Shown here piece by piece: positions 37,785-43,126 of a stretch of DNA of 64,000 nucleotides. The first letter of the stretch is position 1. Every line of letters starts with the position of its first letter. The DNA comes from Candidatus Manganitrophaceae bacterium. GTDB lineage: Bacteria > Nitrospirota > Nitrospiria > SBBL01 > Manganitrophaceae. The notes beneath the pieces are model-generated. The model saw nothing but the letters and a program-made list of their open reading frames with translations, searched no databases and was not told the origin of the DNA. The stretch lies in NCBI GenBank assembly GCA_016200325.1, contig JACQEZ010000016.1, forward strand, positions 186,001-250,000, read 5' to 3'. The translations under genes and the position numbers were made by a program.

Positions 37785-39644
37785 CTAGTCGGAAGTGTTC
37801 GGTGTTGATTTCGGATTGGATTGGGGGGAGGAGAGGCTTCCGATCATCTCGGTGAGAAATTGGCTCGGCCGATTTTTCACCGCTCTGCCAAAACGGTTCC
37901 GCTCTTTGGCCCAGAGGAGATAGAGCCGCTCCTTGGCGCGGGTGATCGCCACATACATCAGGCGGCGCTCCTCCTCCAGCTCTTCTTGCGAAGAGAGGGC
38001 CGGGCGAAGGGGAAAAAGTCCTTGTTCCAAGCCGCAGAGAAAAACGGTCGGCCACTCCAGCCCCTTCGCGGCATGAATCGTCAGGAGCTTTACGGAGTCT
38101 TCCTCATCGCGCAGCTCGTCTTGGACCGACCGGGTAAATTGCCACCGTAAGAAAGCCGCCAGAGAGTGATCCTCCGGGTTCTCCTCTTGCCACCGGCCGA
38201 TCTTTTGAAAGAGCTTCTGAAGGGAGGCTTCTTTGAGAGGGAATCCCTCCTTCCGATAACGCTCGGTGAACTCAAACCGACGGTCGAGCTCTTGGGCCAA
38301 TTCGAGGGCGGTTGGATAATCCCCCCGCGACAGCTTCTCTTGCAGATCGAGAAGGTGCTCTTTGAACCAGGAAGAGGGAAGAATCTCAAAGAGCGGGCGC
38401 TCCGTCCGGGCCGCTTCCAGATTCAACTCGGAGAGAACCTCCGGCGCATACTCCGCCGAGGGCAATACTTTCCTCAAATGATAGTCATCTCCGGGATTGT
38501 GGAGAACGATCATTAAACCCAGAAGATGGCGGACCTCCTCTTTCTCCCAGAACGAAGAGGTCACAATCTGATAAGGAATCTTGCGCAGCTGCAGCGCGCG
38601 TGCCAGGGGAACCGCCTGGGCATGGGTCCGATAAAGGATCGCCATGTCGGCCGGCCGAGACCCTCCCTTTTCACAATCGCGACGGATGACCGAGGCAACC
38701 GCTTCGGCCTCCTTTTCCGGCGTGTCGGCTTGAAGCAGCGACACCGACAGGGATCCGGCCCAGTCGGTCCTCAATCGCTTCGACAGCTGATGGCGATTGT
38801 GGGAGATGAGACGGTTCGCCGCCTCGACAATCGGCAGCGTCGAGCGATAATTCTGCTCAAGCCGGATCACCTCCACATTGGGAAAGGTCTTCGGGAAAGA
38901 AAGAATATGGTCGATCTTCGCCCCGCGAAAACGGTAGATGCTCTGGTAGTCATCCCCGGCCAGGAAGAGATGCGCCGGCTGAAGCAGATCGATCATCTCC
39001 CACTGGTCGGGATCGGTGTCTTGAACCTCATCCACCAGGAGATGGGTGAAGCGCGCGCGGTAAGCCTCCCGGACCGCCTCTTTCTCACGGAGGAGGAAGT
39101 TGGCCGATTGAAGAAGTCCCCGATAGTCAAACGCATTCCCCTCCTTGAGTCGGCGGTGGTACTCGCGCAGAATCGGATGGTCGGCCGGGAACCGGCCTTC
39201 CTGGATCTTGCGGATCACATCGGTCGGATCAAAACGCATTCCCTGCTCATCAAGGATCCCCCGGATGAGTTCGACCTGATCCGCCTGATCGTAAATCGTG
39301 AAGTTCCGTCTATATCCGAGCAGCTCTCCCCAACGCTCCAGCAGGGAGGCGGCAAACGCATGGAAGGTGAGGAGATTCAATTTCCGCTGCTCGCCGATCT
39401 CCGACTCGATTCTCCGGCGCATCTCTCCGGCGGCGTGACGGGTAAAGGTGAGGGCAAGGATATTCCAAGGAGAGATCCCTTCCCTCAGCAAACGGACCAA
39501 GCGGAGGCTTAAGACCGCCGTTTTCCCGCTGCCGGCCCCTGCGTTCACGAGAATGACCGGCGCGCGGCTTTCGACCGCCTGGCGCTGCGCTTCGTTCAGA
39601 GTTTCAATTAATCGTGTTTGGCGTATTTCGCCCATATCCTGCAT
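37785..39644 (-). CDS. UvrD/PcrA-family SF1 DNA helicase
   Basis: 619 residues. Helicase motifs in order: Q-motif NEAQRQAV near residue 16, Walker A GAGSGKTAVL, motif Ia LTFTRHAAGEMR, motif Ib LLTFHAFAA, Walker B LLVDEVQDTDP, motif III AGDDYQSIYRFRGA, motif IV VIRLEQNYRS, motif V TIHAAKGLEWPTVF, and motif VI VAITRAKERLYL. It is about 100 residues shorter than UvrD and lacks the usual C-terminal extension. 3'-5' unwinding in repair or replication is the family role. Third gene of the operon with the Rad50-like ATPase, 9 bp downstream of it. Confidence 0.9.
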   Translation of the reverse strand: MQDMGEIRQTRLIETLNEAQRQAVESRAPVILVNAGAGSGKTAVLSLRLVRLLREGISPWNILALTFTRHAAGEMRRRIESEIGEQRKLNLLTFHAFAASLLERWGELLGYRRNFTIYDQADQVELIRGILDEQGMRFDPTDVIRKIQEGRFPADHPILREYHRRLKEGNAFDYRGLLQSANFLLREKEAVREAYRARFTHLLVDEVQDTDPDQWEMIDLLQPAHLFLAGDDYQSIYRFRGAKIDHILSFPKTFPNVEVIRLEQNYRSTLPIVEAANRLISHNRHQLSKRLRTDWAGSLSVSLLQADTPEKEAEAVASVIRRDCEKGGSRPADMAILYRTHAQAVPLARALQLRKIPYQIVTSSFWEKEEVRHLLGLMIVLHNPGDDYHLRKVLPSAEYAPEVLSELNLEAARTERPLFEILPSSWFKEHLLDLQEKLSRGDYPTALELAQELDRRFEFTERYRKEGFPLKEASLQKLFQKIGRWQEENPEDHSLAAFLRWQFTRSVQDELRDEEDSVKLLTIHAAKGLEWPTVFLCGLEQGLFPLRPALSSQEELEEERRLMYVAITRAKERLYLLWAKERNRFGRAVKNRPSQFLTEMIGSLSSPQSNPKSTPNTSD

Positions 39645-39653
39645 GTCCTCTCA

Positions 39654-41714
39654 TTAAGCGGATGTCTTGGCCGAATCGACCATTGAAACAACCTTCACCC
39701 CCAGGCGCGCCGCATCTCCTGGAGGGATCCCCTCAACCCCTGCGGCGATGAAGTGATCGAGGTGTCCTTCATCGACGAAGGTCGAGAGCGCCTCGATAAA
39801 TCGGCGCCGATGGGGAAGATCGACGCTTTCAAGATTATCGACCAGGAGCAGCCGGCAGCGCGGCTCGCGAAGCAGAATCAGCCCCGTCATCAAAGCGGCC
39901 GAGAAAAGAACCCGCTCACCGGTGGAGAGCGCCTCAAAGGGGATGAACCGCTCTTCCTGCTTCCACCCCATCTCGAAGACCTCATTCCCCCGCGCGTCTT
40001 GAAAGCGAAAGACAATCTCCTTTTCGGGATCGATCGTCTGCAACAGATCATTGACGATCTTGGTCATCGGGCGGAGCTGCTCCTTCATCATCTCCCCCTG
40101 GAGCCCCTTGGGGCCGAGCGCCGTAATTAACTGCTTGAGGGCTTCGATGTGAGCGTCGGCCTTTTTCAGATCGACCTGGTTCTGCTGATAAGCAATCCAG
40201 AGGGAGCGCTGCTCTTCCTGTTCGGCCAATTGCCGCTTCAGCCCTTCCAGGTGCCGCTCCAGCCCCTCTTTCTGTAAGAGGAGATCGTCGGGGTCGGCAT
40301 AGCCGCTGTCGCCCGCTTCCTCCACCTCCAGCCGTGCCAGGATCTCCTCCAGCCGTTTCCCCTCGTCCTCTTGACGCAGCAAGCGCTGAAGCATCTCTTC
40401 CCAAGCGCCGATCTCTGCCTGCGCCGCCCGCGCTTCCTCGGCCAGGGTTTGGCATTTCGCTTGGAGCCGCCCGAGCGTCTCCTGAAGCAGCCGGAAGCGC
40501 TCCCACCGCGCCGACTGGGCCGCTTCACCCTCCGCCAGGGAGCTCTCCTGTTCAAAAAGACGGTGGCGGCCCTGTGTAATGACCGGCGCGAAGTCGACCG
40601 GACAGTCGACCCCTTCGACGACCGGGCAGCGTCCCCGGATCGCCTCGGCGCGGGAGAGATCCCGTTCCGCTATCTCAAAAGAGAGCTTCGATTCGCTCAA
40701 TCGTTTCTCTTCCCTTTCGATCTCCGAGAGGAGCGCCTGCGCTTCCCGCTCGGCCTGTCGGATCTCCGATTCAAGCGAGGCGCGATCGAAGGAGCGCTCC
40801 CGCAACTCGGATAACCGCGTTTGCATCTGCTCGGCGGAGACGACACCGGAGCGCCAGTTCTCCAGTTGAGTCCGGTAGGCTTCGATCTCCCGGCCCCGCG
40901 CCTCGGCCGCCTTCCGGCGCTCATGGTCTTTGGCCAGCTCTTCACGAATGTTAACGATTCGCTCCGTTAGCTCCTCGATCTCCCGCTGCGTCGTCCGTGT
41001 CGTATCCGAGGGAATCAGCACCCCTTGATTGCGCGCCTGGAGCATCCGGCGGGCAGCCGAAACTCCCTCTCTTTTTCGGAGAAGCCAGAGAGAGTACTCT
41101 TTTTTTAAATGGATCAATATTCGATCGAAGTTCGTCTGTAAATCGTCTCGGTCCGACCAGAAAGAGAGCGCTTTGTCGATCCAAGCATGAAGGGTCAGAG
41201 AGCTGACCGGCGCGCGGACGATTTGGACCACTTGGCTCTTCAGTCGTGCTTTATCCCATCCCAGCCCTTTTGCCGGAGAGAGCTCAAAGAGGGTCGACCG
41301 CTTCTTGGCATCGGAGAGGGAGAGAAATGTGCTCAAATCGAACGAAACGGTAAAATCGCCGATCTCCTCGACGATTCGCCGATGCGCTTCGGCCATATTG
41401 CGCTCGCCTTTATGGGGCGAGACCCGAACCGACGTTGAGATCCCTTCGGAATTTAGCTTGAAGGTCCGGTGGAGAATAAACTTTCCCTCGGTCTCGATCT
41501 CCACCGACATTTCCTTTCCGGAGGCAAGCTGAACCACCGAAGCCGGAGTTTTCCCCAGCCGCGGCTCATAGCCTAAAATGCCGACGGTGACCGCTTGGAG
41601 CAGCGCGCTCTTGCCGGTGCCGTTCGGCCCGATCAAAAGCATCTTCGGGGCAAGCGCCCACTCGGAGCGCTTGCCCTTGAAGTTATGAAGACGAACCCGT
41701 GCGAGCTTCGGCAT
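39654..41714 (-). CDS. Rad50/SMC-like coiled-coil ATPase
   Basis: 686 residues. N-terminal lobe with LHNFKG and Walker A LIGPNGTGKSALLQAV near residue 32. Residues about 225-520 are heptad-rich and break at CPVVEGVDCPV near residue 355, where Rad50 proteins have the zinc hook; here the cysteines are seven apart rather than CxxC. The C-terminal lobe has the signature ALSTGERVLFSAALMTG and Walker B LLLVDNLESVD, then the D-loop. The coiled coil is short compared with SbcC or Rad50. No nuclease (SbcD/Mre11) is adjacent; instead an unknown protein precedes it (TAATG overlap) and a UvrD-type helicase follows. Confidence 0.8.
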   Translation of the reverse strand: MPKLARVRLHNFKGKRSEWALAPKMLLIGPNGTGKSALLQAVTVGILGYEPRLGKTPASVVQLASGKEMSVEIETEGKFILHRTFKLNSEGISTSVRVSPHKGERNMAEAHRRIVEEIGDFTVSFDLSTFLSLSDAKKRSTLFELSPAKGLGWDKARLKSQVVQIVRAPVSSLTLHAWIDKALSFWSDRDDLQTNFDRILIHLKKEYSLWLLRKREGVSAARRMLQARNQGVLIPSDTTRTTQREIEELTERIVNIREELAKDHERRKAAEARGREIEAYRTQLENWRSGVVSAEQMQTRLSELRERSFDRASLESEIRQAEREAQALLSEIEREEKRLSESKLSFEIAERDLSRAEAIRGRCPVVEGVDCPVDFAPVITQGRHRLFEQESSLAEGEAAQSARWERFRLLQETLGRLQAKCQTLAEEARAAQAEIGAWEEMLQRLLRQEDEGKRLEEILARLEVEEAGDSGYADPDDLLLQKEGLERHLEGLKRQLAEQEEQRSLWIAYQQNQVDLKKADAHIEALKQLITALGPKGLQGEMMKEQLRPMTKIVNDLLQTIDPEKEIVFRFQDARGNEVFEMGWKQEERFIPFEALSTGERVLFSAALMTGLILLREPRCRLLLVDNLESVDLPHRRRFIEALSTFVDEGHLDHFIAAGVEGIPPGDAARLGVKVVSMVDSAKTSA

Positions 41715-42718
41715 TAGTCCTCCTTCGGAGATTTCTTTTGATTTGAAGCGGCAGACGGGTCTACCGAACGGGGAGAGTTGGATTCGTCATCGGCAGGAAT
41801 CGCACCATACTCGTCTCCCTCGAGCGATCCTTCCAGACTCACCTCCTCGAATCGCGCCTCTTCAATGGCCTGCTCGACTTCGACCTCTCTTGGATCAACC
41901 TGGCCCTTTCCGATCTTCTCGCCGATGTCGGCAAACTTCTTGTAATCGAAATCATGCTTGAAGCCGTAGACGGTAATTTTGGCGATTCCGTTATGGACTT
42001 CGACCGTCTTTGCCGCAATGGCCGGATGCTTTAAGAGCGCGTTCCGGGTGCAGATCGATTGAGCATGGCGGTCGCCGAACTTCTGGCGGCTGACATGCTG
42101 GCTGAAGACCTCCTGAATCTCGCCGTGCGAGAGATCGACCCACAACCCGACCGGATCTTCAATTTCGAAGAAAACCAGCGACCGTCCCGGACGCTCCGGA
42201 CTCAGTGCGGTCGGCGGCTTTTCCTTCATCCCATAGCTGCCGCAGACCGGGTAGCGCCGGACTTTCACCTGCAGGTCCTGCAAAAAATAGGTATAGACGT
42301 TGAAGAAGAGGGTATAATCGACCCCGACCATATTCCCGATCGGATTGGGACCGAAGATGATCTTCCGGACGTAAACCGACTGGATCGCCCGGGTCTTCGG
42401 ATGCCGCTCGATATAAGGGTTCGAGACTTCCTTGCCATCCACCACCACCGAAGGGGGGGTCATAATATTCAAACCGGGGAGCTGGTTCAATTTGTCCGAT
42501 CCCGCCGAGGTGATCATCCAGTGCTCGCCGATCCTCTGAATTTCCTTGTTTCGCTCGGAAAGGGAAACGGGCATCTTACACGCCCGCATGATGCCGGAGG
42601 CGTCTCGGCGAATGAAGACCTCGCCATCTCCCAACAGCGCGACGTTTTGATTCCGAAGCGCCTGGTTTTCTTTTTGAAGTGTTTCGACCGATTCTTTTTT
42701 TGCGACGTTCACGTTCAT
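41714..42718 (-). CDS. unrecognised protein paired with the Rad50-like ATPase
   Basis: 334 residues from ATG 42718, with AAGGAG six bases upstream. I do not recognise it. A coiled-coil start (VETLQKENQALRNQN, residues about 11-27) is followed by a folded domain of about 250 residues with features such as LGDGEVFIRRDASGI, MTPPSVVVDGKEVSNPYIER and VRKIIFGPNPIGNMVGVDYT. A central CGSYGMK and a charged, serine-rich C-terminal tail complete it. The stop overlaps the ATPase start. Constant pairing with an SMC-like ATPase would suggest a DNA-binding or adaptor role, but this is inference. Confidence 0.7.
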   Translation of the reverse strand: MNVNVAKKESVETLQKENQALRNQNVALLGDGEVFIRRDASGIMRACKMPVSLSERNKEIQRIGEHWMITSAGSDKLNQLPGLNIMTPPSVVVDGKEVSNPYIERHPKTRAIQSVYVRKIIFGPNPIGNMVGVDYTLFFNVYTYFLQDLQVKVRRYPVCGSYGMKEKPPTALSPERPGRSLVFFEIEDPVGLWVDLSHGEIQEVFSQHVSRQKFGDRHAQSICTRNALLKHPAIAAKTVEVHNGIAKITVYGFKHDFDYKKFADIGEKIGKGQVDPREVEVEQAIEEARFEEVSLEGSLEGDEYGAIPADDESNSPRSVDPSAASNQKKSPKED

Positions 42719-43010: not shown

Positions 43011-43039
43011 TTTATAACATATGCCCTACTCATTGTCAA
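43011..43039 (-). promoter_or_regulatory. strong promoter of the Rad50-like operon
   Basis: Minus-strand TTGACA (43034-43039), 17 bp, TATAAA (43011-43016). Transcription would start near 43004. Confidence 0.75.
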
Positions 43040-43096: not shown

Positions 43097-43126
43097 TTGA
43101 CAAGTAGAATCTAAAAAATATATAAT
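43097..43126 (+). promoter_or_regulatory. promoter of pgpA
   Basis: TTGACA (43097-43102), 18 bp, TATAAT (43121-43126); TATATA with 16 bp spacing overlaps it. The leader to pgpA is about 105 nt and AT-rich. Confidence 0.75.

Follow-up and report, generated by a model that had tools for sequence, protein, structure and literature searches.

Organization of the locus

The window, a stretch of 64,000 nucleotides, belongs to contig C16 of the 4.2-Mb genome of a manganese-oxidizing Candidatus Manganitrophus (Nitrospirota). Three consecutive genes on its minus strand encode a 334-aa protein, here termed X (41714..42718), a 686-aa SMC/Rad50/SbcC-like ATPase (39654..41714) and a 619-aa UvrD/PcrA-type SF1A helicase (37785..39644), for which no additional nuclease domain was found. 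The X and ATPase genes meet in a TAATG junction, and 9 bp separate the ATPase and UvrD genes. A first-pass annotation had read this arrangement as an operon with a promoter of its own, and our analysis confirmed the coordinates, reading frames and junctions. The promoter, TTGACA-N17-TATAAA (43011..43039, minus strand), is kept in other aligned Manganitrophaceae sequences, while the surrounding intergenic DNA mostly is not; it is, therefore, supported better than by consensus alone. Divergent from it, a promoter-like site with a perfect TTGACA-N18-TATAAT (window 43097-43126, plus strand) faces pgpA-cinA-thpR-recA.

The operon neighbors are ordinary, housekeeping-like chromosomal genes. On one flank lie an NHL-repeat protein gene, assigned by profile match, and two genes that, from reading their sequences, we take to encode an HD-GYP response regulator and YqgE. 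The other flank presumably encodes PgpA, CinA, ThpR, RecA and PilT, names that likewise come from reading the sequences. Next to the Manganitrophus operon, we saw neither phage structural genes nor an integrase.

Sequence families and predicted fold of X

X had been described as belonging to no known family and as starting with a coiled coil. The first statement holds for Pfam and NCBIfam, neither of which contained a matching family, but not for PHROGs, where X matches phrog_32428 (4e-55 over 271 residues), a family listed without function. The coiled-coil start is reduced to a low-confidence helix at residues 6-23 (pLDDT about 50-67). X had no match in PADLOC, and a literature search on the X-ATPase-UvrD gene set found nothing relevant.

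Position in phage early regions and the look of an A-Q-[ST]-x3-R-N region led us to suspect a single-strand annealing protein (SSAP) ahead of any fold search. Pfam SSAP models matched neither X nor its diverse relatives. Judged by sequence, X is outside the RecT, Erf, Rad52_22 and Sak3 families, and nothing detectable is shared with RecT, Erf, Rad52 or Sak proteins. Alignment of X to RecT and Sak with hhalign gave no match, a weak test given that the control comparison of RecT with Sak fails too. The Rad52-like SSAP superfamily is defined by fold, not by a sequence model.

An AlphaFold model of X, based on 52 sequences, predicts a core at approximately residues 35-290, with pLDDT mostly >90, composed of long paired strands, a hairpin and a 32-residue helix and followed by a disordered C-terminal tail. 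The top three PDB matches obtained with VIA-align were all human RAD52 (8rjw, Z 6.5; 8bjm, 6.2; 5jrb, 6.1), with scores below the level that the tool calls safe. These alignments span 122-124 residues, and the next-best fold reached Z 4.7. Next to human RAD52, with which it has no sequence similarity, X has additional N-terminal strands as well as the disordered tail. Human RAD52 was the sole solved SSAP in the match list; missing RecT/Red-beta entries carry no evidential weight. For X from a viral lineage with a split ATPase gene, discussed below, the predicted elements follow in a similar order and RAD52 ranks sixth (Z 5.3 over 124 residues), tied with ribosomal protein uS5-type folds that align over fewer residues. 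Foldseek returned no significant match for the X model among PDB and viral models, and a profile search of solved structures returned nothing credible. We regard the RAD52 match as a pointer to a Rad52-like fold that is suggestive and not proof. In that fold, a helix packs across a three-stranded antiparallel sheet, and its members anneal complementary single strands and form rings or filaments (PMC9870868, PMC11783212).

Viral relatives and exchange of partner genes

We searched 50,697 deposited phage records by tblastn with five X queries, from the window and from loci L010, L013, L045 and L056, and with the window ATPase. None matched, while a RecT control matched 929 of the records; laboratory phages, therefore, do not cover X. 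A scan of viral contigs with the window X as single query also gave no match, alignments being required. Although missing from the deposited phages in this search, the lineage was recovered by profile-guided IMG/VR scans in 59 distinct viral contigs, a count that leaves out the Manganitrophus genomes, one Clostridioides plasmid and L026, a weak relative.

The ATPase gene lies directly or nearly directly downstream of X in 40 of the 59 viral contigs, so that X occurs mostly with this partner. Fourteen of these contigs have a one-piece ATPase and 26 belong to the split-ATPase lineage. A UvrD gene is also present in the same order in 37 of the 40, and the other three stop at the contig edge. The same partner picture emerged from the scans queried with X, which do not favor ATPase neighbors. 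The trio recurs in the same order in phage-like contigs, where it takes the position of a DNA recombination cassette, in line with the stable three-gene DNA-processing module proposed in the first-pass annotation, and a role in DNA processing is very likely. In L010, it sits among genes that we take, again from reading their sequences, to be an integrase, a repressor-like gene and a DnaB-like gene.

The other 19 contigs lack the ATPase and UvrD genes and instead carry a Cas4-domain exonuclease, and it is these exceptions that reveal the likely function of X. The exonuclease gene is present in all 19, although its assignment in L062 is weak, and adjoins X directly in 18, usually with a 4-base overlap. 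Its products match phrog_1990 (8/8 tested) and share the invariant residues D, E-x-K and Q-x3-Y together with four invariant Cys. No locus combines the two partner sets: trio loci have no Cas4 gene and Cas4 loci no ATPase. In a tree of X, the one-piece, split and Cas4 types are separated with two changes, the minimum possible. Manganitrophus X branches beside the Cas4 clade (support 89), yet its operon retains the ATPase and helicase. In Cas4 loci that we examined, a third gene lies behind the X-Cas4 pair (L056:8210-8926, L065:9935-10627); it matches phrog_10477, which is annotated as exonuclease.

An SSAP gene together with an exonuclease gene is the usual, if not strictly defining, layout of phage annealing systems. 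Because the sister clade pairs X with a Cas4-type exonuclease in this layout, X is a candidate for an annealing function. Set against the Rad52-like SSAP superfamily (PMC9870868, PMC11783212), exonuclease pairing is found in 18-19 of the 19 contigs of one X clade and not in the window operon. In Firmicutes phages, RecT/SSAP genes adjoin nucleases and sometimes SMC or AAA ATPase genes (PMC8093625). Taking gene context and fold model together, X is probably a strand-annealing recombinase of a new, Rad52-like kind, and we propose this role in place of the DNA recognition or effector function suggested at first.

Among the alternatives, the one that survives best is that X handles DNA in another way, as an ssDNA-binding protein, end-binding protein or replication mediator that partners a nuclease or an ATPase-helicase pair without annealing strands. 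A structural Z of only about 6 and the missing sequence tie to known SSAPs speak for it, but RAD52 comes first among the structural matches of the window protein, the pairing with Cas4 exonucleases is typical of SSAP cassettes and the alpha/beta architecture, with long beta strands and the 32-residue helix, is by element order not an OB fold. We consider this alternative unlikely.

The SMC-like ATPase

The ATPase belongs to phrog_32642 (2.6e-73 over 659 residues), which PHROGs also lists without function, and matches the SbcC/Rad50-type family phrog_77 (1.9e-24). Like SbcCD and Mre11-Rad50 ATPases, it has a Walker A motif (GPNGTGKS, residues 29-36; 41607..41630, minus strand), an ABC/SMC signature (LSTGE, residues 596-600; 39915..39929, minus strand), a Walker B motif (LLLVDNLE, residues 622-629; 39828..39851, minus strand), a coiled coil and an apex cysteine pair. 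It differs from them in a shorter coil, in an Asn at the position of the expected catalytic Glu of Walker B and at the apex, where CPVVEGVDC (residues 363-371; 40602..40628, minus strand) replaces the CxxC zinc hook. This altered hook, with cysteines seven apart, had been noted before; C363-x7-C371 proved invariant in 15/15 aligned one-piece ATPases, including those of viral contigs and the Clostridioides plasmid. The Walker B motif has DN in 13 of the 15, DE in L010 and DD in L054. The Asn may, as we infer from the motif, cause slow hydrolysis and a long-lived clamp. In the L054 ATPase (L054:9116-11242), the DD Walker B goes together with a signature degraded to LNNAH.

A CxxC hook is confined to the split-ATPase lineage. 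In these 26 contigs (among them L013:7998-9607, L012, L015, L024, L073 and L077-L094), the Rad50/SbcC-like ATPase is encoded by two genes, cut at the hook. In the cases that we read closely, the N-terminal half carries the CxxC (AGCxxCAAxxVxxxEL+K) just ahead of its stop codon, and the next gene encodes the C-terminal half with the signature and Walker B. Most C-terminal halves read have the Walker B Asp substituted and the following Glu retained. On the Clostridioides plasmid pESS17301a (L004:12004-21122), 6 kb separate a distant X from a C-x7-C ATPase, and a 1787-aa helicase-like protein is encoded in this interval. The set lies downstream of ThiF and prokaryotic E2 family D genes, which are reminiscent of PRTRC-type plasmid cassettes.

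Given the SbcC/Rad50-type ATPase, the operon could also encode a plain end-processing complex of that type whose nuclease subunit is lost or located elsewhere, X being a substitute nuclease or an adaptor. The operon contains no Mre11/SbcD gene, as had been pointed out earlier. A search of the whole host genome gave no SbcD above the cut-off (best 22 bits versus 77.65), and none turned up among 20 module-bearing viral records, while a control search recovered SbcD in 13 of 14 known genomes. Together with the C-x7-C apex, the Walker B Asn and the lack of a match between X and any nuclease family, this makes the end-processing complex very unlikely.

The helicase and similarity to defense systems

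The operon helicase is of UvrD/PcrA type, with a TIGR01073 PcrA match of 1e-131. In a tree, three further UvrD-like host proteins cluster with UvrD and Rep of E. coli, apart from the operon helicase. On this phylogenetic evidence, the module helicase is not the housekeeping UvrD of the host. The tree did not place the Manganitrophus helicase firmly with phage helicases.

The best PADLOC matches of the helicase were GajB (4.6e-87) and RTasHel helicases, and the ATPase resembles LmuB (7e-11). A defense role had been considered in the first-pass annotation, and such similarities, with the combination of an SMC-like ATPase and a UvrD helicase, would fit an anti-phage or anti-plasmid defense operon of the Gabija, Lamassu or Wadjet kind, with X as sensor or effector. 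We think this highly improbable: the PADLOC matches reflect only generic SMC and UvrD resemblance, the trio occurs in temperate-phage early regions, the host locus is fixed in one family and not a variable island, similarity of the ATPase to GajA is confined to the P-loop with no match to a GajA-type TOPRIM nuclease domain, and neither the LmuA effector nor JetA, B or D subunits are seen beside the ATPase gene.

A candidate annealing module with exchanged partners

We consider it likely that the operon is a domesticated temperate-phage recombination module built around an SSAP of a new family, with a clamp ATPase and a helicase taking the place of the exonuclease. X would coat single strands and, independently of RecA, bring complementary ones together. 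In its sister lineage, the single strands would be supplied by the Cas4-type exonuclease. The Manganitrophus operon has the Rad50/SbcC-like ATPase and UvrD-type helicase in the nuclease's place; the ATPase might clamp or tether DNA ends, which the helicase would unwind to provide the substrate for X.

Known phage SSAP-exonuclease cassettes (lambda Red, RecET, and RecT with a YqaJ or DUF3799 nuclease) are likewise early-region operons, and in them, too, the SSAP, here a candidate, adjoins the enzymes generating single strands. Pairing of this kind with an exonuclease is seen in the sister clade of X, whereas the window operon has an SMC-like ATPase and a UvrD helicase instead. If true, this exchange would represent a different route by which single strands reach an annealing protein. 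It would also give a testable function to two function-less phage families, phrog_32428 and phrog_32642, and suggests that the annealing proteins of phages are not limited to the RecT, Erf, Rad52 and Sak families. X is, in addition, a candidate recombineering tool.

More tentatively, we raise the possibility of a general scheme in which a new SSAP family with an SMC-like clamp ATPase and helicase performs annealing fed by unwinding and tethering, not resection; phages would exchange one mode for the other, and a single bacterial family would have adopted the helicase mode for chromosomal repair beside recA.

Distribution, selection and origin in the host

X is present in 6/6 Manganitrophaceae genomes, compared to 0/12 others of the order, and in one of 296 genomes of the phylum Nitrospirota, that one being the present genome. 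CP114561 and SCUR01000261 are named Candidatus Manganitrophus relatives. The host genome yielded no RecT. Estimates of dN/dS, rough values because dS is near or over saturation, were 0.04-0.07 for X (versus intact relatives), 0.05-0.08 for UvrD and 0.14-0.18 for the ATPase. With 0.04-0.09 for intact copies of RecA, X and UvrD are about as constrained as this protein, and the ATPase appears looser. The operon is under purifying selection in the host, where it could serve RecA-independent break repair or recombination with incoming related DNA.

By profile, X and the ATPase belong to families described from viruses; here they are chromosomal and fixed in one bacterial family, and such a copy would represent a domesticated phage recombination system. 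A phage origin is supported but not proven. Capture from a temperate phage by an ancestor of the Manganitrophaceae would be the simplest history, its direction from phage to host being suggested by the distribution. Manganitrophus X and UvrD form deep branches in their trees, which do not prove direction. In the Manganitrophus GAC4 assembly (CP114561), a MAG, X, the ATPase, recA and alaS all seem frameshifted, and these frameshifts look more like sequencing error than decay.
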